Source: an uncultured bacterium (GTDB taxonomy: Bacteria; Planctomycetota; UBA1135; GCA-002686595). Taken from it: DNA of 64,000 nucleotides. Below the pieces are notes generated by a model that was given only the letters and a program-made list of their open reading frames with translations, did no database searches and had not been told where the DNA came from. The number at the start of each line of letters is the position of its first letter. The stretch's first letter is position 1. This document shows, in pieces, positions 17,717 through 32,485 of the stretch. The stretch lies in the NCBI GenBank assembly GCA_937905825.1, contig CALCXM010000074.1, positions 1 to 64,000 on the forward strand, written 5' to 3'. The translations under genes and the position numbers were made by a program.

Positions 17717-19945
17717 CTACAGTTCGTAGGCGCCGATATCGTGAGCCCCGTGGCTCGGACGCTGGTTCCCATTGATGTCCTCATGGGAACCGGGCAGGGC
17801 CTCTCCCGCGTTCACACAGGGAGAGCTCGCCGAGAGACCGAAGTTGCCAGAGTTCACAAGCGGCAGCACCGGGTCGGCCCAGATCGAGTGGGCGTCCTGG
17901 TTGAAGCTCTGCTTCCAGTCGTTGAACGAGTAGGAGAGGTTGGAGCCTCCGATTGCGAAGGTTAGATCGTTCGCGTCCTGACCAGGCCACCAGAAGTTGT
18001 TGTAGTCACTGTCGATGACCGGGATCATCGCCGTCTGGCTGATCTCGTAGAACGAGTGATCGCTATGGGGGGCACCGTCTCGCACGAAGATGTTGTTCTT
18101 GATCTCAATGCTGTCGTAGTAGAGCCCCGAGCCGATGTCGATGTCCGGAACGTCGTTCGAGTAGAACGTGTTGTTCAAGATCTTGACCCTGGCGCCCGGA
18201 TCATCGTTGTCCATCGCGATGGTCGAAATGGCCCAGTCCGGCGAGATGTTGATGTTGTACATCACGCAGTTGCGAATGGTCACCGATTTGATGCGGGTCA
18301 AGCGGAAGGCGCTGCCTTGCTGATCCCCACCGATGTCGTGGATCGTGTGACCCTCGTTGATGACGTTCGTGTTGGATGGATCCGTGTCGTCCGAGAAGTT
18401 CGTGCCGCAGCTGATGCCGTTGCGCGTGTTGGTCACTTCACAGCCCCGGAAAAGTCCGTGGACGACCGAGTTCTGCTTCATGCCGAAGTTGGCGAAACCT
18501 CCGCCGCCGTTGAAGTAGCAATCCTCCCAGTAGGTCTTGCGCACGATGTTCAAGTACATCTGGTGATCGAGGATGTTCGTGCTGCCGCTGCCCGTGAAGC
18601 TGCTGCGGCGGGAAGAGATCCAGCTGTGGTATTGGCTGTAGAGGCCAAAGCGTTCACCGTTCGAGACGTTCGTGTCCTCGATGACCAAAAGCTGAATGTG
18701 CTCTTCAGGATCGACGCCAGCCGTGTGGCTCGCGATGATTCCGCCGCCATCGATGTCGCAGTTGCGGATCGTGTTTCCATGGCCCACGGAGGTCACGAGC
18801 TTCTTGGAGATGCGCGGACCCGTCGGGTTGGTGATGTGCAAGTCGCTGACGATGCGCGACAAGCCCCACTCTTGATGGTGCCCAAGACTGATGTGGTTAT
18901 CGGTGCCGGGGAACTGAATCTTGGGCTTCGCACCGGTGCCGTAGGCCGCGATGATGGAGGGTCCAACCGTGCTCAGGTTCTGATTTTGAGTCCAAACGTC
19001 GCCGCGCTTGAGCAGCAAACGGTTGGGGTTGTTCTGCGAACCACCCATGTGATCAACGGCGTACTCCAGGGTGCGCCAAGCAGAGTCCAAGTCCGTTCCC
19101 GAGTTGGAGTCGTTGCCCGCCGAGTTGGAGACGTAGAACGTCTGCCCGGAGAAGGGCACCACTTGCACCATGGTGGTCGTGCTATCAGACGCGCCGGCCT
19201 CGTCGAAGACCGTCAGGCGCACGGTGTAGTTGCCCGGGTTGTCGAAGCGGTGACCGATCAGCATGCCCTCATCCGTGCGCGGATCCTGGGAGTTGCTGTC
19301 GCCGAAGTCCCATTCCCAGCGCACGATCGGCACGCCGCCGTCGGTCGATTCGGTCCCACCGAACATCGTGCTGTAGGGCGCGATACGCATGGTGTTGGGG
19401 GGCGTTTCGATGACTGCTTGCAGGCCAGCGCTGCCGCCGTTGGCCGTCACCAGCACGTCATGGACGAAAACTCCGCTGGCCAGGTCTGCCGCGAAGGTCA
19501 GTTGCGCGCTGTGGGTGCCCGTCCCCAGGTTCGCTGCGTTTCCTTGCAAAATCGACGCGGTCACGCGAACCGCGTGGCCCGGGGCGATCATGCCGGAGAT
19601 GCGGTCGGTGGTCACCCAGGGTTGGTTGTTGATCACCGTCCAGTTCAGGGGCTGGTTGTAGAAGTTTTCCAGCAGGTACGTGGCCTGGGTGGAGGTGAAG
19701 GGGCCCCCGACCGGCCCCGTCGCGTACAGCGGGGTCTGGGTCGTGACGGACCAGCGCTCTGCCAGGACGGCCATGCTGGGCTGGGTGCTCCGGAAAGAGG
19801 CCGGGGTGATCCCGGATCCGCTCGGATTGGCCGTCTGAGCGGGAGCGAGTCCCGCAATCGTCATCGAGGCCAGCAGGGCCAGAATGGCCCGAGAGTTCCG
19901 GAATGGGCGCGTGCCGCCGGAACAGGAGGGGGGGTTGTGAAGCAT
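17717..19945 (-). CDS. Secreted PKD / parallel beta-helix protein (copy A)
   Basis: A 742-residue exported protein. A signal peptide (about 18-38) ends near LAPAQ. Next comes a BACON-like beta-sandwich module (about 60-170) with GPVGGPF and PWVTT, then a PKD domain (about 176-264) with WEWDFGD and YTVRLTVFDEAG. The rest is a long right-handed parallel beta-helix with repeated N-N-x-F and IRNC rungs. It ends directly after HDIGAYE, the choice-of-anchor-Q terminus, with no sorting signal. Such helices usually bind or cleave polysaccharides or act as adhesins; no catalytic residues can be assigned. It is clearly paralogous to the next gene on this strand. The start used is the ATG at 19945; no good SD precedes it. 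Confidence 0.83.
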   Translation of the reverse strand: MLHNPPSCSGGTRPFRNSRAILALLASMTIAGLAPAQTANPSGSGITPASFRSTQPSMAVLAERWSVTTQTPLYATGPVGGPFTSTQATYLLENFYNQPLNWTVINNQPWVTTDRISGMIAPGHAVRVTASILQGNAANLGTGTHSAQLTFAADLASGVFVHDVLVTANGGSAGLQAVIETPPNTMRIAPYSTMFGGTESTDGGVPIVRWEWDFGDSNSQDPRTDEGMLIGHRFDNPGNYTVRLTVFDEAGASDSTTTMVQVVPFSGQTFYVSNSAGNDSNSGTDLDSAWRTLEYAVDHMGGSQNNPNRLLLKRGDVWTQNQNLSTVGPSIIAAYGTGAKPKIQFPGTDNHISLGHHQEWGLSRIVSDLHITNPTGPRISKKLVTSVGHGNTIRNCDIDGGGIIASHTAGVDPEEHIQLLVIEDTNVSNGERFGLYSQYHSWISSRRSSFTGSGSTNILDHQMYLNIVRKTYWEDCYFNGGGGFANFGMKQNSVVHGLFRGCEVTNTRNGISCGTNFSDDTDPSNTNVINEGHTIHDIGGDQQGSAFRLTRIKSVTIRNCVMYNINISPDWAISTIAMDNDDPGARVKILNNTFYSNDVPDIDIGSGLYYDSIEIKNNIFVRDGAPHSDHSFYEISQTAMIPVIDSDYNNFWWPGQDANDLTFAIGGSNLSYSFNDWKQSFNQDAHSIWADPVLPLVNSGNFGLSASSPCVNAGEALPGSHEDINGNQRPSHGAHDIGAYEL

Positions 19946-20705: not shown

Positions 20706-23219
20706 TTAGCGCTCGTAAGCGCCCATGTCGTGGCCTGCTCCCGTTGGTCGGGGGCTGCCTTCAATGTCATCGTGGGATCTCGCTAGCTCTACGCCCGCGT
20801 CAATGGCGGGCGAGCCAGCATTCAAACTGAAGTCCCCGGAGCCCGCGTTGGCGAACTGGGGGTCGATCCACGAGGAGTGCTCATCCTGGGAGAACGTCGT
20901 CTTCCAGGTGTTGAAAGAGTGGCTCGGACTGGAGCCGCCAACCGCGAAGGTCGAGTCCGCAGCGCTTTCTCCGGACCACCAGAACGCGTTGTAGTCGCTC
21001 TCGATGAACGGCAGCATCTCGGTCTCACTGATCTCGTAGAACGTCGCGTCGCTGCCCGGCGAGCCCGTCCGGTAGAACACGTTGTTCTTGATCTCGATCA
21101 AGTTGTACACGAGGCCCGAACTGATGTCGATGTCGGGCACCTCGTTCGAATAGAACGTGTTGTTCAGGACCCGCACGGTTGCCCCTGGATCGTCGTTGTC
21201 AAAGGCGATGGTTGCGATCGCGTAGTCCGGCGAGACGTTGATCTCATACATCACGCAGTTGCGGATCGTAACGGACTGGATGCGAGTCAGGCGGAACGCG
21301 GCGCCCTGATTGTCACTGCCGATGTGGTGGATCTCATGGTCCTCGTTGATCACGTTCGTGTTCGAGGGATCTGTGAAGTCCGAGAAGTTCGTGCCACAGC
21401 TGATGCCGTTGCGTGTGTTTGTGATCTCACAGCGTCGGAACAGGCCATCGACCACAGAGTTCTGCTTCATGCCGAAGTTGCAGTCGCCCGCTCCGCCGTC
21501 GAAGTAGCAGTCCTCCCAGAGGTTCTTCTGAACGATGTTTAAGTACATCTGGTGGTCGAGGATGTTGCCCGTGCCATTGCCGGTGAAGCTACAGCGTCGG
21601 GCCGAGATCCACGAGTGGTACTGGGCGTAGAATCCAAAGCGCTCGGCGTTGTTGGCGGTGACGTCTTCCATGATGAGCGACATGATGTGCTCTTCTGGAG
21701 GAACTCCCGCCGTGTGGCTTGCGATGATGCCGCCGCCGTCGAGGAGCATGTCGCGCATGACGTTGCCGTAGCCTACGGAGGTCACCAGCTTCTTCGAAAT
21801 GCGCGGCCCGCTGGGGTTGGTCAGGTGCAGGTCGCTAACGATGCGCGAGAGTCCCCACTCCTGGTTATGACCTAGGCTCAAGTGGTCGTCCTCGCCCGGG
21901 AATTGAATCTTCGGCCTGGCCCCGGATCCGTACGCCCCGAGGATCGATGGACCCGTGGTGCTCAAGCTGCTGTCTTGGGTCCAAGTGTCCCCGCGCAGCA
22001 GCAACAAACGATTCGGAGCGCCCTGGGAGCCTCCCATGTTGTCGATGGCGTACTCCAGGGTCTTGAACGGGGCTCCCGTGCTGAGGCCGTTGTTCGAGTT
22101 GTCTCCCCCGGACTCGGACACGTAGTAGGTGGTTCCTGTGAAGGGCACCACGACCACTTCCGTGGTGACCGCATCCGATGCGCCAGAGGCGTCGATGACC
22201 GTCAAGGTCACCGTGTACGTGTCGGGAGTGTCGAAGCGGTGTCCGACCAACATGCCCTCGTCCGTGCGCGGATCCGAAGAGTTGTCGTCTCCGAAGTCCC
22301 ACAGCCAACGAACGATCTCTTCGCCATCCTCAATGGAATCCAATCCACTGAACATCGTGCTAAAGGGCGCGATCCGCATGGTGTTGCCAGGCATGCTGAT
22401 GGCTGCTTCCAAGTCACCATCGGGGGCGTTGGCGGTCAAGCGCACGGTCCGAACGATGCTGTCCGGGTCCAAATCCGCCGAGAAGGTCAGTGCCGAGTCG
22501 TTGACTCCGGACGCCAGCCCCGCGGCCGAACCTTGGTTGATGGACGCGACCACCTGAGCACTATCGCCGGGGACCAGCACACCGCCGTTGGTGTTCGTCG
22601 TGACCCAAGCGGCCGAACTCAGAACGCCCCAAGAGAGCATGGTGTTGAAGTTGTTGGTCACCGTGTATGTGCGTGAGCTAGGGCTGAATGGTCCACCGAC
22701 CGGGCCGGAGGTGTAGAAGATCGATTGATCCTCGACCGACCAACTTTCGCCGACGTCGAGGGTGAAGCCAATGATGATTTCACTTTCCTCATCATCTGCT
22801 TGGGCGAGGGTGACCCGGGCGACCCGTTCGCTTTCGGGATAGGTAGCCGCCAGGGATTGATTGACGGTGATGGAGAGGTCGAATGTTTCGCCGCCGAGCA
22901 AGCTGCCCTCCGTGCTGGAGAGCGTGATCCAGGTGTCGGAGCATTCCGCGATCCAATCCAACTCGAGCCCGCCGACGTTCGCCAGTTCCAAGACCGTCAC
23001 AGCGGGGGCGAAGGGGCCGGCCACCGGACCGCCGATGGTGACGGGGTCCGTGGAGTCCACCGAGAGAATTCCCGGCTCGGACACGAGCAAGGTATCGCCG
23101 TCGGGACCTGCGGGGTCTTCCGAGCCTGAACAGGCTGCAAGCACTGCCAACAAGGGAATCGCAGCCCAATGTGGGCGTGTCCCTTTTGCCCCTCGGGGCA
23201 ACGGCCTGCTTGTTTCCAT
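20706..23219 (-). CDS. Lipoprotein with two BACON-like modules, PKD and parallel beta-helix (copy B)
   Basis: An 837-residue paralogue of the protein at 17717-19945. The start is the ATG at 23219, preceded by a G-rich ribosome-binding stretch (GGGGGGGAGAG on the coding strand). A longer open frame upstream is not protein-like. The signal ends in a lipobox, LAVLAAC. Two BACON-like modules follow, each marked by GPVAGPF or GPVGGPF, where copy A has one. Then come PKD (LWDFGDDNSSDPRTDEGM) and the same beta-helix, ending at HDMGAYE. The lipid anchor predicts membrane attachment, whereas copy A should be released, so the pair may act at the cell surface and in the matrix. Confidence 0.84.
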   Translation of the reverse strand: METSRPLPRGAKGTRPHWAAIPLLAVLAACSGSEDPAGPDGDTLLVSEPGILSVDSTDPVTIGGPVAGPFAPAVTVLELANVGGLELDWIAECSDTWITLSSTEGSLLGGETFDLSITVNQSLAATYPESERVARVTLAQADDEESEIIIGFTLDVGESWSVEDQSIFYTSGPVGGPFSPSSRTYTVTNNFNTMLSWGVLSSAAWVTTNTNGGVLVPGDSAQVVASINQGSAAGLASGVNDSALTFSADLDPDSIVRTVRLTANAPDGDLEAAISMPGNTMRIAPFSTMFSGLDSIEDGEEIVRWLWDFGDDNSSDPRTDEGMLVGHRFDTPDTYTVTLTVIDASGASDAVTTEVVVVPFTGTTYYVSESGGDNSNNGLSTGAPFKTLEYAIDNMGGSQGAPNRLLLLRGDTWTQDSSLSTTGPSILGAYGSGARPKIQFPGEDDHLSLGHNQEWGLSRIVSDLHLTNPSGPRISKKLVTSVGYGNVMRDMLLDGGGIIASHTAGVPPEEHIMSLIMEDVTANNAERFGFYAQYHSWISARRCSFTGNGTGNILDHQMYLNIVQKNLWEDCYFDGGAGDCNFGMKQNSVVDGLFRRCEITNTRNGISCGTNFSDFTDPSNTNVINEDHEIHHIGSDNQGAAFRLTRIQSVTIRNCVMYEINVSPDYAIATIAFDNDDPGATVRVLNNTFYSNEVPDIDISSGLVYNLIEIKNNVFYRTGSPGSDATFYEISETEMLPFIESDYNAFWWSGESAADSTFAVGGSSPSHSFNTWKTTFSQDEHSSWIDPQFANAGSGDFSLNAGSPAIDAGVELARSHDDIEGSPRPTGAGHDMGAYER

Positions 23220-23807
23220 GAACTCTCCCCCCCGATGAGTGGACCCGTCTGCCGGGCGCCCGGCAGAGACCCACAGATTACCTCGGCACCCGCGAATCCC
23301 GAATGGTTGAGATCTGACCCTTCCCCAGTTCCTGAACATTTGATGCTCCATTGCCCCTTTACCCCTTTGGCCCGCTACGGCATTGGCCAGCTACGGCCCC
23401 TCCCAAACACGAAGTTTCCCGAACTTCCCAGAAACCGTGATCGGTCTCGATCTGCATTCGGCTGGAGCAAAACCAGCCGCTTGCTGACCAAGTCCGCCGC
23501 TGGGCTCGTAGGACGCGTTTTTTCTGTCAGAGCGCGGATCTTTTAGGCATTCCCTTTTCGAGGAGTTGGGGAATCGGACGGCCATCGCGAGGTCTCGTAG
23601 CGCCGCACCAGGGCCCGGGGCCCTCGAGAATCTCTCGACCTTAGCCGGGGGCAATGCCGAAGCTATGCTGAGTGCCGGAGGTCGCCGTTCCTCCCACTGG
23701 ATCCATCCGACCTTTTGCCCCGAATTCGCTTTGCCGCTCTCTATTCGATTCACGGACACGCCCTCCATTGAGACGCCCGGCGCGCTGGACCTGGGAGTCG
23801 GGTGCCG
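23220..23807. other. Divergent intergenic region
   Basis: About 590 bp between the lipoprotein gene (minus) and a GT2 gene (plus). It should contain both promoters. A run of seven C at 23226-23232 is the G-rich SD region of the minus-strand gene. No further feature is supported. Confidence 0.45.
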
Positions 23808-27835: not shown

Positions 27836-28065
27836 GGGGAATAGGGGCGACTGCGGGGGCTGAGGAAGGGTTCGGAAAGGGGCGGAATGAGGGGGGATCC
27901 GCGAAAGTTCTTTCGACTTTTCTGGCCTACCAAATTTGCAGTATTTGGGGACTGGAGGTAGATTTATTTCTGGTCCATCACCGTTTGGTCCAGAGCCTTG
28001 CGCGCTCACTGTCTGAGCCAGCGCACTCTACAGAAACCAGTCCCGTCTGGCCCGCTCCAAGAGAC

Positions 28066-31000
28066 ATGAATCGATTCCTGCTTCGCTTGCTTCCTGTCCT
28101 GGCTTTTTCGAGCTCCGCTGCTGCTCAAATCCAGGATCTCAGTGTTCAGAGTTACTCCAATTCCGCGACCGTTTCCTGGAACATGGGAAACCCGGCCATC
28201 GCGCAATTGCAGTACGGTCTGACGACCGCCCACGAATTGGAGACCCTCGGAGGGGTGGGGCAAGCGTTGCTCTCCATCGACTTCGAAGAGCTCGCCATTC
28301 CGATGAACGGAGACATCGATGGGGCCGACTTCGAGTCCCAGGGCTTTGCTTTCGACGTGGCCAACGATCACTCGAACTTTGCCAACGGAAGCATCGTCTA
28401 CACCAAGGGCCCGGCGGCTGTGAACGGCGGAAAATTTTTCTTCCTGCACGGCAACTACAGCGGTGGTTGGGTGCTTCCGAAAGTGACGATGAGTCACGCA
28501 GCCGGGCACCAGTTCGATCTCCTGGAACTTAGCCTCACCGAATACGTGCTCTTCGCAGACGCGACCCAGGTCAAATTCACTGGACGCTTCCCCTCGGGGG
28601 CGACGGTGACCAAGACCGTCCTGCTCGACGGCATCTTGGACGGCGCCGGTGGCGTGGATGACTTCCAGACCGTGACCTTCGATGGTTCTTGGGCTGGCCT
28701 GGAGAGCGTCGAAATGCTTGGCAGCGGGGGGCAGGCTCCTTTCGTCTTCGCTCTCGATGACATTCGAGTGCGCGACGTGGCTCCCTTGGTGACCTCTGCG
28801 AACTTCGCCTTGGAGAACCTGACCCCGGACACGACCTACTACTTCCGCGCGGAAGCCGAAGAGACCTCTCAGGTGCTTCACCACTTCGAGGGCAGCTTCG
28901 TGACGAGCCCCACCGGCGGCAACCCCCCGGAGATCCTCTCCCACGAAGTCTTCGTCACGGACTTGACCGCGACCTTCAACTGGACGACGGACGAACCCGC
29001 CCGCGGATCCGTGGCCTACGGCCTGACGGACCAGCACGAGCTGGGCACCTTGTCGACAGCTCTCGAGAGCCAGACGTTGGATTTCGAAGAGCTGGGCGTG
29101 CCCATGAACGGCGAGTACGAGACCGGTGACTTTACCTCCGGTGGCTTCAACTTTGACGTGAGCGACGACGAGGTGGACTTCGTCAACGGTCAGGTGACCT
29201 TCGGCGGCTCCCCGGGTGCCTACAACGGCGGGACTTACTTCTACATCTACGGCTCCTACAACGGCGGCTGGGGTTACCCCTCAGTGACCCTGACGCCCCT
29301 GGACGGAACTCCCTTCTCCCTGCACCGCTTCGACTACTCCGAGACGGCCACCTTCGTCGCGGCGACCAAGCTCTCTGTTACTGGTCAGACGAGCGCCGGT
29401 GGCATCCTGATGGCGACCTTCTTCCTCGACGGAATCATCGACGGTGTTGGTGGAGCAGAGGACTTCGAGACCGCCGTCTTCGACGAGACTTGGGTGGACC
29501 TCGTCTCCGTTAGCGTGCAAGCTTCCGAGGGCGCCTCAGGAGCACTCCTGGCCCTCGACAACTTCGTTCTCAACGAAGCCGACGGTTTGACCACGCAGCA
29601 CAGCTTCACCCTTCAGAACCTGGCGTTCGGTACGGACTACCACGTGGAGCTTTTTGCCACGAGTCCCGCGGACGCGGTGGCTTCGACCGGTGATCTCTTG
29701 ATCACCACCACGGCCTTTGACGATCACACGGCGCCCACCCTTAGCGATCCTGTGGTGGTTGCGGCATCCGGCAACGCGACGATCAGCTGGACGACCGACG
29801 AGCTTTCCGAGACCCGTCTGGAGTACGGGCTGACCGAGAACTACGGGCTTTCCGTGGCCGCTTCGGCGCCCGTGGCGACGAACCTGGACTTCGAAGAGAT
29901 CGTCGTTCCCATGAACAACGACATCGACGCCGGGGACTTCAGTTCCGGTGGGTTCACCTTCGACATCAGCAACGATCACTCGAACTTCGCGAACGGACAG
30001 AAGTCGACCTGGAACTTCAACGGCTCCACCTACTTCTTCCTGCACGCCTTCTACTCCCAGGGGTGGGTCTACCCGCACACGACGGTGACTGCCGATCAGG
30101 GCGGAACGTTCTCCCTCAAGGGCTTCGATATCGGCGAACTGCTCTTGGGCGTTCACGCACAAACCGTGCGCGTCACCGGCACCAAGTCCTCCGGTGCACA
30201 GATCGTGCTCGACGTGCAACTCGACGGCATCCTCGACGGCACCGGTGGTGCTGACGACTTCCAGACGGTGGTCTTCGATCAAAACTGGAACGACCTGGTC
30301 GCGCTCAACCTGCGCGCGACTGCGGGGACCAGCTACCGTGCCTTCGCCTTGGACAACGTCCAATTGGTGCACACGGCGGGCCTGACCCGCGACCACGTCG
30401 TCGAACTAACCAACCTTGGAGTCAACCTCAACTACAACTACCGCGTGAGCGCGGTGGACGAGGCTGGCAACGAGACGATCGACCAGAACCGCACCTTCTC
30501 GACTGCCCCTGCGGTGGACGATGTGGCTCCTGTGATCTCCAACGTAGTCGTGAACCCTGCCACAAACTCAGTGACGGTGACCTGGGAAACCGACGAGTGG
30601 ACCAGCGGCAAGATCGCCCTGGGCCTGACCCCGGCCCTGGAACTTGGAGAGTTCGACGGTGGTGGCAGCGGCATGAACGTGATCGACTTCGAGACCAACT
30701 TCGATGCGAACACCATGGCCCCGATCATCGTCCCGGTGGACGACGACATCGACGAGGAGGACTTCTACTGTGAGAACTTCCTGTTCGACATCAGCAACGA
30801 TCACTCCAACTTCCTGAGCGGTGAGGTGCTGTTCCTGAACGAGCCGGTCTCCTACAACGGAACCTCCTGCTTCTACGTGCACGGCTTCTACAACCAGGGC
30901 TGGGTCTTCCCCACGGTGGACATGACTTCCCTGCAGGCCGAGACCTTCGACCTGGTTCAGCTGGACGTGTCTGAGGCGACCTTTCTGGCCAACACCGTCC

Positions 31001-31344
31001 AAGTGCGCTTCACGGGAACGCACCCCAACGGAACCACGGAAGTTTTGCTGCACGACGTGGACATGATCCTCGACGGAAGTGGTCCCCTGAACGACTTCGA
31101 AACCCTGACCTTCGGTCCCGAGTGGTCGAACCTCTCCAAGCTCACCATGCAGTCCACGGGCGGCGTCAAGGAAGCTGAGGTGGTCTACGACAACATCGTG
31201 GTGCGCGAGGGTGGCGGACTGTTGCACAGCGTCACGGCTACGGGCCTGGCCCCGGGAACTGTCTACAACCTGCAGATCAGTGCGACGGATGCCGCTGGCA
31301 ACCAGACGGTGCTTGGAACCACGACGTTCTCGACAGGCATTTAG
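28066..31344 (+). CDS. Secreted repeat protein: four FN3-like domains, each with an inserted beta-rich domain
   Basis: A 1092-residue exported protein. A signal peptide (1-21) ends at SSAAAQ; ATG 28066 is chosen because it begins this signal. Four tandem units follow. Each starts with the first half of an FN3-like domain (SWTTDE...LEYGLT). A roughly 160-residue block then runs from DFEE to FALDN, and the second FN3 half (LTNL...YRVSAVDEAGN) closes the unit. Inserts lie near residues 71-239, 339-502, 607-768 and 872-1046. Shared insert motifs are SNDHSNFANG, YNGxxYFFLHG, GWVYP and LDGILDGTGG. No C-terminal sorting signal is seen. Function is unknown; an extracellular matrix or glycan-binding role is plausible. 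Confidence 0.82.
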   Translation: MNRFLLRLLPVLAFSSSAAAQIQDLSVQSYSNSATVSWNMGNPAIAQLQYGLTTAHELETLGGVGQALLSIDFEELAIPMNGDIDGADFESQGFAFDVANDHSNFANGSIVYTKGPAAVNGGKFFFLHGNYSGGWVLPKVTMSHAAGHQFDLLELSLTEYVLFADATQVKFTGRFPSGATVTKTVLLDGILDGAGGVDDFQTVTFDGSWAGLESVEMLGSGGQAPFVFALDDIRVRDVAPLVTSANFALENLTPDTTYYFRAEAEETSQVLHHFEGSFVTSPTGGNPPEILSHEVFVTDLTATFNWTTDEPARGSVAYGLTDQHELGTLSTALESQTLDFEELGVPMNGEYETGDFTSGGFNFDVSDDEVDFVNGQVTFGGSPGAYNGGTYFYIYGSYNGGWGYPSVTLTPLDGTPFSLHRFDYSETATFVAATKLSVTGQTSAGGILMATFFLDGIIDGVGGAEDFETAVFDETWVDLVSVSVQASEGASGALLALDNFVLNEADGLTTQHSFTLQNLAFGTDYHVELFATSPADAVASTGDLLITTTAFDDHTAPTLSDPVVVAASGNATISWTTDELSETRLEYGLTENYGLSVAASAPVATNLDFEEIVVPMNNDIDAGDFSSGGFTFDISNDHSNFANGQKSTWNFNGSTYFFLHAFYSQGWVYPHTTVTADQGGTFSLKGFDIGELLLGVHAQTVRVTGTKSSGAQIVLDVQLDGILDGTGGADDFQTVVFDQNWNDLVALNLRATAGTSYRAFALDNVQLVHTAGLTRDHVVELTNLGVNLNYNYRVSAVDEAGNETIDQNRTFSTAPAVDDVAPVISNVVVNPATNSVTVTWETDEWTSGKIALGLTPALELGEFDGGGSGMNVIDFETNFDANTMAPIIVPVDDDIDEEDFYCENFLFDISNDHSNFLSGEVLFLNEPVSYNGTSCFYVHGFYNQGWVFPTVDMTSLQAETFDLVQLDVSEATFLANTVQVRFTGTHPNGTTEVLLHDVDMILDGSGPLNDFETLTFGPEWSNLSKLTMQSTGGVKEAEVVYDNIVVREGGGLLHSVTATGLAPGTVYNLQISATDAAGNQTVLGTTTFSTGI

Positions 31345-31418
31345 CCCGATTGACCCGAGCGAGGCGCCGGCTGTCCAGCGTTTCCTTGACCAGCCCCCGG
31401 GCAAGGTCTGAAATCAAA

Positions 31419-31450
31419 GGCGGGATTCCCAAGGGAGTCCCGCCTCCTCG
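31419..31450 (+). terminator. Hairpin terminator after the FN3-repeat gene (weak T tract)
   Basis: The 12-bp stem GGCGGGATTCCC / GGGAGTCCCGCC (one G-T pair) lies 75 bp past the stop. It is followed by TCCTCGTTTG, so the T tract is poor. Placement between two plus-strand genes supports a terminator role. Confidence 0.6.
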
Positions 31451-31561: not shown

Positions 31562-32485
31562 ATGAAGCCCAAGCTCTTATGGATCCTCGCGGCCTTCGCA
31601 GCCGCTCTCTTGATCTACCAAGTCATGGGCTCCGGTTCTCCCGAGGTTGGCCCCGGTCCTGGGCTCGCGCCTGGGGGCGGCCCGCGCTCAGGGGTGACGC
31701 GCGAGGACAGTTCCCTGCACCGCAGTTCACAGGACGCGGAAGCTCCCCGTGGTGAAATCCGCGCGCAATTGACAGGGGTCGTGCGGGATCACCTGGGAAG
31801 CCCGCGGGCCGGTGAGCGCATCTGGATTCTGCGACCGGGTGAAAAGCATCCCAAGGTCCTGGGGCACGCGAAACCCTTGAAGACCGTGGAGAGTGACGCC
31901 TCCGGCAGATTCCAAGTGGAGTTGGGACCAGAAGACGAGTGGCACTTTTCAGTGGGCGCTATCGGCACCTGTGAGTTGACCACAGAGGTTCGCCGCTTTC
32001 GTTCCGGAGAGCAGGCCGAAGTGGAGATCATCCTGAACAACGCGGCCCATCTCAGCGTTGAAGTCACGGCAGCCGCCGGAGTGAACACAGCCCTGCAACC
32101 CGCTCGAATCGAGATCCTGCGCAAATCGAAAAAGGGCGACGACGACCTGATTCCCTTCGGAGCGCCACCGGTTCCCGGTTTCGGTTTGGATCCAATGGCC
32201 AAACCAGTGGCGCCCGCGGCCTGGAACACAAGTGCGGCCCTCGGTCTGCGTTTTGGGGAAGCGTTGCTCTTCTCGAGGCTCAAGCTAGGAGACACCTACC
32301 GGGTGGCGGTTGTGCTTGGTCCTGGCACGGCAACCTCGACCACGGACATCGTCCTGCAGGCCGGTGAGGATCGCGTGGCCCGATGCCTATTGGAAGAGCG
32401 CGAAGGTGTCCTGTCCCTAAGCGTGAAGCTGCAGTCCGCGCCATCCAAGGCAGCGACTCAAGCGGGTTTCCACTGGAAGCCCTGA
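31562..32485 (+). CDS. Membrane-anchored protein with a carboxypeptidase-regulatory-like domain
   Basis: No specific family is recognised. The 307-residue protein has an N-terminal span (about 4-22) that anchors it with the bulk outside, then a Gly/Pro-rich linker. A domain at about 68-145 resembles carboxypeptidase-regulatory-like beta-sandwiches (LTGVVRDHLGSPRAGERIWI, then SDASGRFQVEL). A second beta-rich region follows (about 150-300). Such domains are common in planctomycete surface proteins. It sits between the FN3-repeat gene and the kinase-like gene on the opposite strand. Confidence 0.7.
   Translation: MKPKLLWILAAFAAALLIYQVMGSGSPEVGPGPGLAPGGGPRSGVTREDSSLHRSSQDAEAPRGEIRAQLTGVVRDHLGSPRAGERIWILRPGEKHPKVLGHAKPLKTVESDASGRFQVELGPEDEWHFSVGAIGTCELTTEVRRFRSGEQAEVEIILNNAAHLSVEVTAAAGVNTALQPARIEILRKSKKGDDDLIPFGAPPVPGFGLDPMAKPVAPAAWNTSAALGLRFGEALLFSRLKLGDTYRVAVVLGPGTATSTTDIVLQAGEDRVARCLLEEREGVLSLSVKLQSAPSKAATQAGFHWKP

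Follow-up and report, generated by a model that had tools for sequence, protein, structure and literature searches.

The window analysed here, a stretch of 64,000 nucleotides on contig CALCXM010000074.1 (assembly GCA_937905825.1) of an uncultured member of the Planctomycetota, encodes at 28066..31344 on the forward strand a protein of 1092 amino acids that consists of four nested units. In each unit, an FN3 domain is interrupted by an inserted domain of about the same kind and size. The four split FN3 domains in tandem are probably sockets that hold jelly-roll inserts sideways as ligand-binding heads. At the level of sequence, four units with a common order, a common insertion place in the FN3 domain and an insert that matches the bodies of small proteins from end to end are shown. 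The packing of both FN3 halves into one domain is predicted from a model of unit 3, and modelling likewise predicts that the insert is an independently folding jelly roll resembling carbohydrate-binding modules (CBMs).

The frame opens with an ATG at 28066 and closes with the stop at 31344; in the mechanical list of open reading frames it starts at a TTG at 27985. On the forward strand, unit 1 comprises an FN3 N-half (28129..28263), insert I1 (28273..28773) and an FN3 C-half (28783..28917), followed in the same order by unit 2 (28918..29073, I2 at 29074..29574, 29584..29724), unit 3 (29722..29877, I3 at 29881..30369, 30379..30513) and unit 4 (30517..30666, I4 at 30679..31209, 31210..31341). 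Inserts I1 to I4 correspond to residues 70-236, 337-503, 606-768 and 872-1048, each flanked by FN3 halves, and measure 167, 167, 163 and 177 residues; the N-halves have 45-52 and the C-halves 44-47 residues. Pairwise identity among the units amounts to 37-48% for the inserts, 29-36% for the N-halves and 24-45% for the C-halves. The units are too diverged to appear as a tandem repeat at the DNA level, a search of the gene returning no rows. An initial annotation had described four FN3 domains, each split by a common insert, and this description is confirmed by the frame, the unit order and the controls given below. The motifs that it assigned to all inserts hold only in part: SNDHSNFANG is exact in insert 3 and reads ANDHSNFANG, SDDEVDFVNG and SNDHSNFLSG in inserts 1, 2 and 4; the G-W-V-Y-P core, GWVLP, GWGYP, GWVYP and GWVFP in inserts 1-4, is exact in insert 3 and variable elsewhere; and the DGILDG loop is exact in inserts 1 and 3, with DGIIDG in insert 2 and DMILDG in insert 4.

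In Pfam, the whole protein matches Pur_ac_phosph_N (PF16656; 54.5 bits, cut-off 30) and fn3 (PF00041; 36.6 bits, cut-off 25), the best stretches spanning just part of the FN3 profile. These families represent the same domain as the shell of each unit, except that ordinary members are whole and these four are split. After removal of the insert, units 1-4 score 31.7, 23.4, 24.3 and 28.5 bits against PF16656 (cut-off 30), and 67-84 of its 93 positions are aligned in all four. In units 3 and 4, the isolated N-half does not match this profile, and the isolated C-half reaches 14.6 and 19.9 bits, respectively. Our own FN3 profile was built from 214 domains of other proteins only, gathered with the joined unit 3 as the seed query, which somewhat favours that unit. 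It gives 23-46 bits for halves alone, 21-42 for uncut units and 53-91 for joined halves. Sliding excisions, in which 130-195 residues were removed (427, 455, 432 and 483 excisions in units 1-4), scored highest at 57.3, 65.7, 93.8 and 79.2 bits with residues 60-234, 329-503, 600-769 and 874-1053 removed, that is, the inserts; because the peaks are broad, the insert ends are certain to some 10-30 residues. Halves joined at the assigned boundaries score 52.9, 64.0, 91.1 and 77.0 bits. Among 600 half-shuffled joins made for each unit, the highest scores were 32.5, 42.8, 56.1 and 45.5 bits. The excision and shuffle controls together rule out an artefact of two unrelated repeats. In ordinary FN3 domains, the stretch that bridges the two halves (HMM positions 41-53) has 9-27 residues (median 13, n=195), in agreement with the 10-20 residues expected by the initial annotation.

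Ordinary FN3 arrays align continuously to the C-half of one unit plus the N-half of the next (e.g. residues 240-330, 508-596 and 771-858). This could mean that each C-half joins the following N-half, so that the true repeat would be an insert plus a permuted domain. However, adjacent domains are expected to look exactly so in any case, and two neighbouring ordinary domains would give an identical picture. Permuted pairing would also leave unpaired the N-half with which the protein starts and the C-half with which it ends. Moreover, the FN3 profile runs from N to C across the insert, and in its predicted model unit 3 alone makes up a complete FN3 domain. We consider such a pairing extremely improbable.

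Among the matches listed for ordinary FN3 arrays, at least five long alignments (24-27% identity; proteins P0006, P0009, P0024 and P0026) cross the inserts, and the FN3 scan shows no split domain in these proteins. All 244 full-length FN3 domains in the gathered sequences are whole, only the four of the window protein being split, and no second nested case was found among 415 sequences, 55 of them with FN3 matches, a set gathered largely by FN3 or insert matches. Scanning contigs with the whole unit yielded 160 pattern matches and no relatives. A protein search with insert 3 recovered only itself among 1011 candidates, and since it missed a related protein (L041, described below), this absence is no proof.

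The inserts match no named Pfam family. The NCBIfam model NF038120, which describes a family of PEP-CTERM proteins, is weakly matched by inserts 2 and 3 (18.1 and 19.1 bits, cut-off 80), and inserts 1 and 4 have no match listed. Nine small proteins were found with a profile of the four inserts; one of these, P0047, is a fragment. The other eight have a signal-peptide-like start, then an insert-family domain and then a PEP-CTERM-like tail, and the domain limits, after the start region and before the tail, coincide with the insert limits. In alignment A4, whose 13 members are the four inserts and the nine stand-alone proteins, NF038120 is matched by ten members at E up to 1 and the PEP-CTERM family PF07589 by eight. 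The insert aligns over the entire body of the NF038120-type proteins (PEP_CTERM_QFxxD and its neighbours), which begins at DFE and closes with LDNI. It differs from them in that inserts 2 and 3 fall far under the 80-bit cut-off and the window protein has no PEP-CTERM tail: at an E-value limit of 10, PF07589 gives no match anywhere in it, nor does Pfam find any C-terminal sorting motif there.

With the insert profile, eight of 392 genomes of the phylum match, the own genome included. Among the nine places outside the own genome, L030 is spurious (a reading of 122 amino acids with an internal stop, excluded from all trees), and the other eight encode such proteins, seven of them with a PEP-CTERM-like tail as judged by eye; one locus, L025, belongs to Thalassoglobus neptunius, also of the Planctomycetota. 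The class scan matched one of 154 genomes, namely the own genome. When the whole protein was the query, nine of 61 close genomes matched, again including the own one; the other eight contribute 18 places, all of them confined to the FN3 parts, with no insert matched. A new domain family, as first supposed for the insert, is thus rejected by the relatives found in the protein and genome scans, and the insert is rather to be aligned with the body of PEP-CTERM proteins. By the initial annotation, nesting would be refuted if the insert matched a known domain that usually comes after a complete FN3 domain. No such arrangement was seen among the relatives inspected: some carry the domain by itself ahead of a PEP-CTERM-like tail, some have it between TSP3 repeats, and in others it stands at the start of the protein. 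Locus L024, of the same phylum, has an extension of ~130 residues at the C terminus, after the insert-family domain, in place of the PEP-CTERM tail. Loci L046 and L047, from metagenome-assembled genomes (MAGs) of Verrucomicrobiaceae, have frames of 625 and 632 residues from stop to stop, with the insert-family domain near the N terminus and a longer body.

A second scan, of named genomes, gave 13 loci, the closest being L041 (PIVT01000048.1) in a proteobacterial MAG. Its visible part (positions 1-1851, 617 residues; the gene start lies beyond the contig edge) carries two copies of the insert domain with TSP3 repeats between them (TSP_3, 25.4 bits, cut-off 25) and a tail that looks dockerin-like by eye; no FN3 domain was matched there. 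Its beads are 39-46% identical to the inserts, which overlaps the 34-48% measured among the inserts themselves in this comparison. The tree joins the two L041 beads with the four inserts in a single supported group (97/96), apart from the 22 other relatives included. GWxxP together with an NDHSNF-like block, motifs picked after the alignment had been viewed, occurs in all six members of this subfamily and in none of the 22. This tree took in both beads of L041 as well as L042, L043, L045, L048, L050 and L053; P0047 was excluded for length, L044, L046, L047, L051 and L052 were left out to limit its size, and L049 is the same stretch as L025. Because the beads and the inserts belong to one subfamily, this subfamily is also used un-nested, separated by TSP3 repeats in L041 and nested in FN3 in the window protein, which indicates that the insert domain is reused in different scaffolds across phyla. 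The DGILDG-like acidic loop, which the initial annotation had listed as a shared feature of the inserts and a putative calcium-binding site, is found in a loose form in 15 and in a strict form in 11 of the 22 other relatives; the loop is therefore a trait of the domain family, unconnected with the nesting.

Regarding structure, the check suggested in the initial annotation, the prediction of one unit, gave a model of unit 3 in which the two halves form a single FN3 fold completed across the insert. Insert 3 folded alone, from an alignment of 13 rows, gave a pLDDT of 82.9 and a pTM of 0.81. Solved structures found by sequence comprised none of relevance for the whole protein and none at all for the insert profile. 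The predicted jelly roll brings to mind DUF4465, the BtuJ-type family of vitamin B12-binding jelly rolls, and divergent DUF4465 domains strung together would capture cobalamin. In that family, a B12-binding tyrosine in the HI loop is present in 97% of homologues (PMC13398666), but this hallmark is not conserved here: by eye, inserts 1, 2 and 4 lack an equivalent of the NTPAY tyrosine, and only insert 3 has a tyrosine nearby. The only helix of the insert 3 model has three residues, as opposed to the DE-loop helix of DUF4465. The Pfam profile (PF14717) matches none of the 13 alignment members, DUF4465 has no match in the own genome, and profile comparison assigned probabilities of 4.6% and 13.4% over 9 and 16 columns. 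The profile searches and comparison thus reject membership in DUF4465, and a B12-binding string is very improbable.

The model for the protein's action is as follows. The N terminus (28066..28128 on the forward strand; MNRFLLRLLPVLAFSSSAAAQ) resembles a signal peptide by eye, and the protein would thus be secreted. The split FN3 domains would serve as sockets from which the inserts project sideways off the string, and the inserts may bind an extracellular ligand such as a glycan, one possibility being the exopolysaccharide of the cell itself. A comparable design is known from RTX adhesins. According to PMC12077191 and PMC10865825, ligand-binding domains exit and re-enter "split" beta-sandwich domains, which keep them away from the axis and turn their binding face outward, and split domains serve as a marker for ligand-binding domains; the holders described in RTX adhesins are Ig-like domains, the RTX solenoid and perhaps a vWFA domain. 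The window protein shares with them a domain emerging from an interrupted beta-sandwich, as judged from its sequence and the unit 3 model, and by this analogy it is read as a predicted four-headed binding protein.

Several points weigh against this reading. In the published cases, the split holder is mostly an Ig-like domain within a very long RTX adhesin, whereas the holder here is FN3 and the protein has 1092 residues, and the Pfam families listed for the full sequence (13 at E up to 10) include no RTX repeat. Units 2-4 remain under the 30-bit cut-off of PF16656 despite the excision, with one of the four passing alone; as far as profile scores can tell, the excision adds to an FN3 signal that the halves already carry (23-46 bits alone) rather than creating it. 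The model covers one unit of four and is weak, being based on a four-row alignment, with a mean pLDDT of 67.8 (47.7-67.8 over five models), a pTM of 0.53 and a poor insert. Completion of the FN3 fold was judged from aligned ranges, which mark only the first and last residue. Foldseek alone placed multi-domain proteins first for this model, with query-length TM-scores of at most 0.36 among the matches listed, and the resemblance of the insert fold to CBMs is broad and says nothing about function.

The inserts might instead be structural beads, stiff or bulky spacers of a surface or matrix protein that bind nothing specifically. In favour of such beads, both the jelly-roll core and the acidic loop are family-wide, and the nearest un-nested relative, L041, strings the domain between TSP3 repeats. 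Many PEP-CTERM bodies are also not known to have a ligand. Bearing in mind that split domains mark ligand-binding domains in RTX adhesins, we regard mere spacers as a possible but rather unlikely explanation, and ligand-binding heads as the preferred one.

The candidate ligand is suggested by the genomic setting, as the gene sits among polysaccharide genes. The locus at 23802-46275 of the window encodes putative glycosyltransferases, a WecG-type transferase, a polysaccharide deacetylase, a Wzy-like ligase, a flippase, a nucleotide-sugar dehydrogenase and a sugar phosphotransferase, some of the matches (e.g. Wzy_C and the flippase) being under curated cut-offs. An exosortase match lies on a different contig of the own genome. 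PEP-CTERM proteins are linked to exopolysaccharide producers (PMC1569441). This tie, together with the gene neighbours, makes the cell's own polysaccharide a plausible ligand. Just 3' of the gene, a terminator-like hairpin of 12 pairs (31418..31445, forward strand) matches the consensus only, and seven such sites in the region compare with 4.7 expected by chance. Past the hairpin, the next gene (31562-32485, forward strand) encodes 307 amino acids with a hydrophobic N terminus and a carboxypeptidase-regulatory-like match under the cut-off. Two large PKD-domain proteins are encoded on the reverse strand at 17717-19945 and 20706-23351, the second also with BACON_2 and weak beta-helix matches.

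How the array arose is less clear. The initial annotation held that the insertion preceded the duplication of the array, and this is not supported, as the FN3 shells form no resolved clade and the inserts resemble the un-nested beads of L041 as closely as they resemble one another. A nested unit that arose once and was then duplicated as a whole is still slightly favoured over several placements into existing FN3 domains. Site and order are identical in all four units, and a tree without un-nested beads groups the inserts as a single clade (92/87, not starred). On the other hand, they are not one clade in the best tree with P0047 (AU p 0.164) or the L041 beads (p 0.35); once either is added, insert monophyly is neither shown nor rejected. 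In an early tree, P0047 grouped with insert 4 (95/93), a grouping that rests on at most 57 residues. One clade of FN3 shells is rejected with the nearest outside FN3 domains (p 0.026) and not rejected in four of four random draws of outside domains (p 0.22-0.57). Each of the four shells scores better against outside FN3 domains than against its siblings, which is ordinary, as 133 of 193 outside domains do likewise. There is no sign of recent transfer: the gene has a GC of 0.608 and a GC3 of 0.812, and its 10 neighbours range over 0.608-0.653 and 0.695-0.837. It is conceivable, though doubtful, that an autonomous, secreted jelly-roll domain entered a pre-existing FN3 string on more than one occasion, always at one fixed loop, and thereby converted an inert array of spacers into an adhesin with four heads. 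If true, FN3 domains would be generic sockets, offering a modular route to multivalent binding proteins.

As far as titles and abstracts show, the literature searched, outside which most subscription papers lie, contained no split, interrupted or discontinuous FN3 domain, no FN3-nested domain and no description of FN3 as a socket for plugged-in binding heads; PMC11525138 concerns an insertion within a sialidase catalytic domain, not FN3. Unlike the RTX adhesin modules, the window protein has the same nested pair four times in tandem. Its holder is a purple-acid-phosphatase-type FN3 domain cut near the middle, whereas the module described in PMC10865825 has a single strand before the insert. 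Annotation of such proteins calls for caution, as whole-protein profile searches detect half-domains and the insert bears no Pfam name. A short planctomycete protein with this FN3-based design in four repeats would suggest that placing a binding head in a spacer domain is a general design of multivalent surface proteins.
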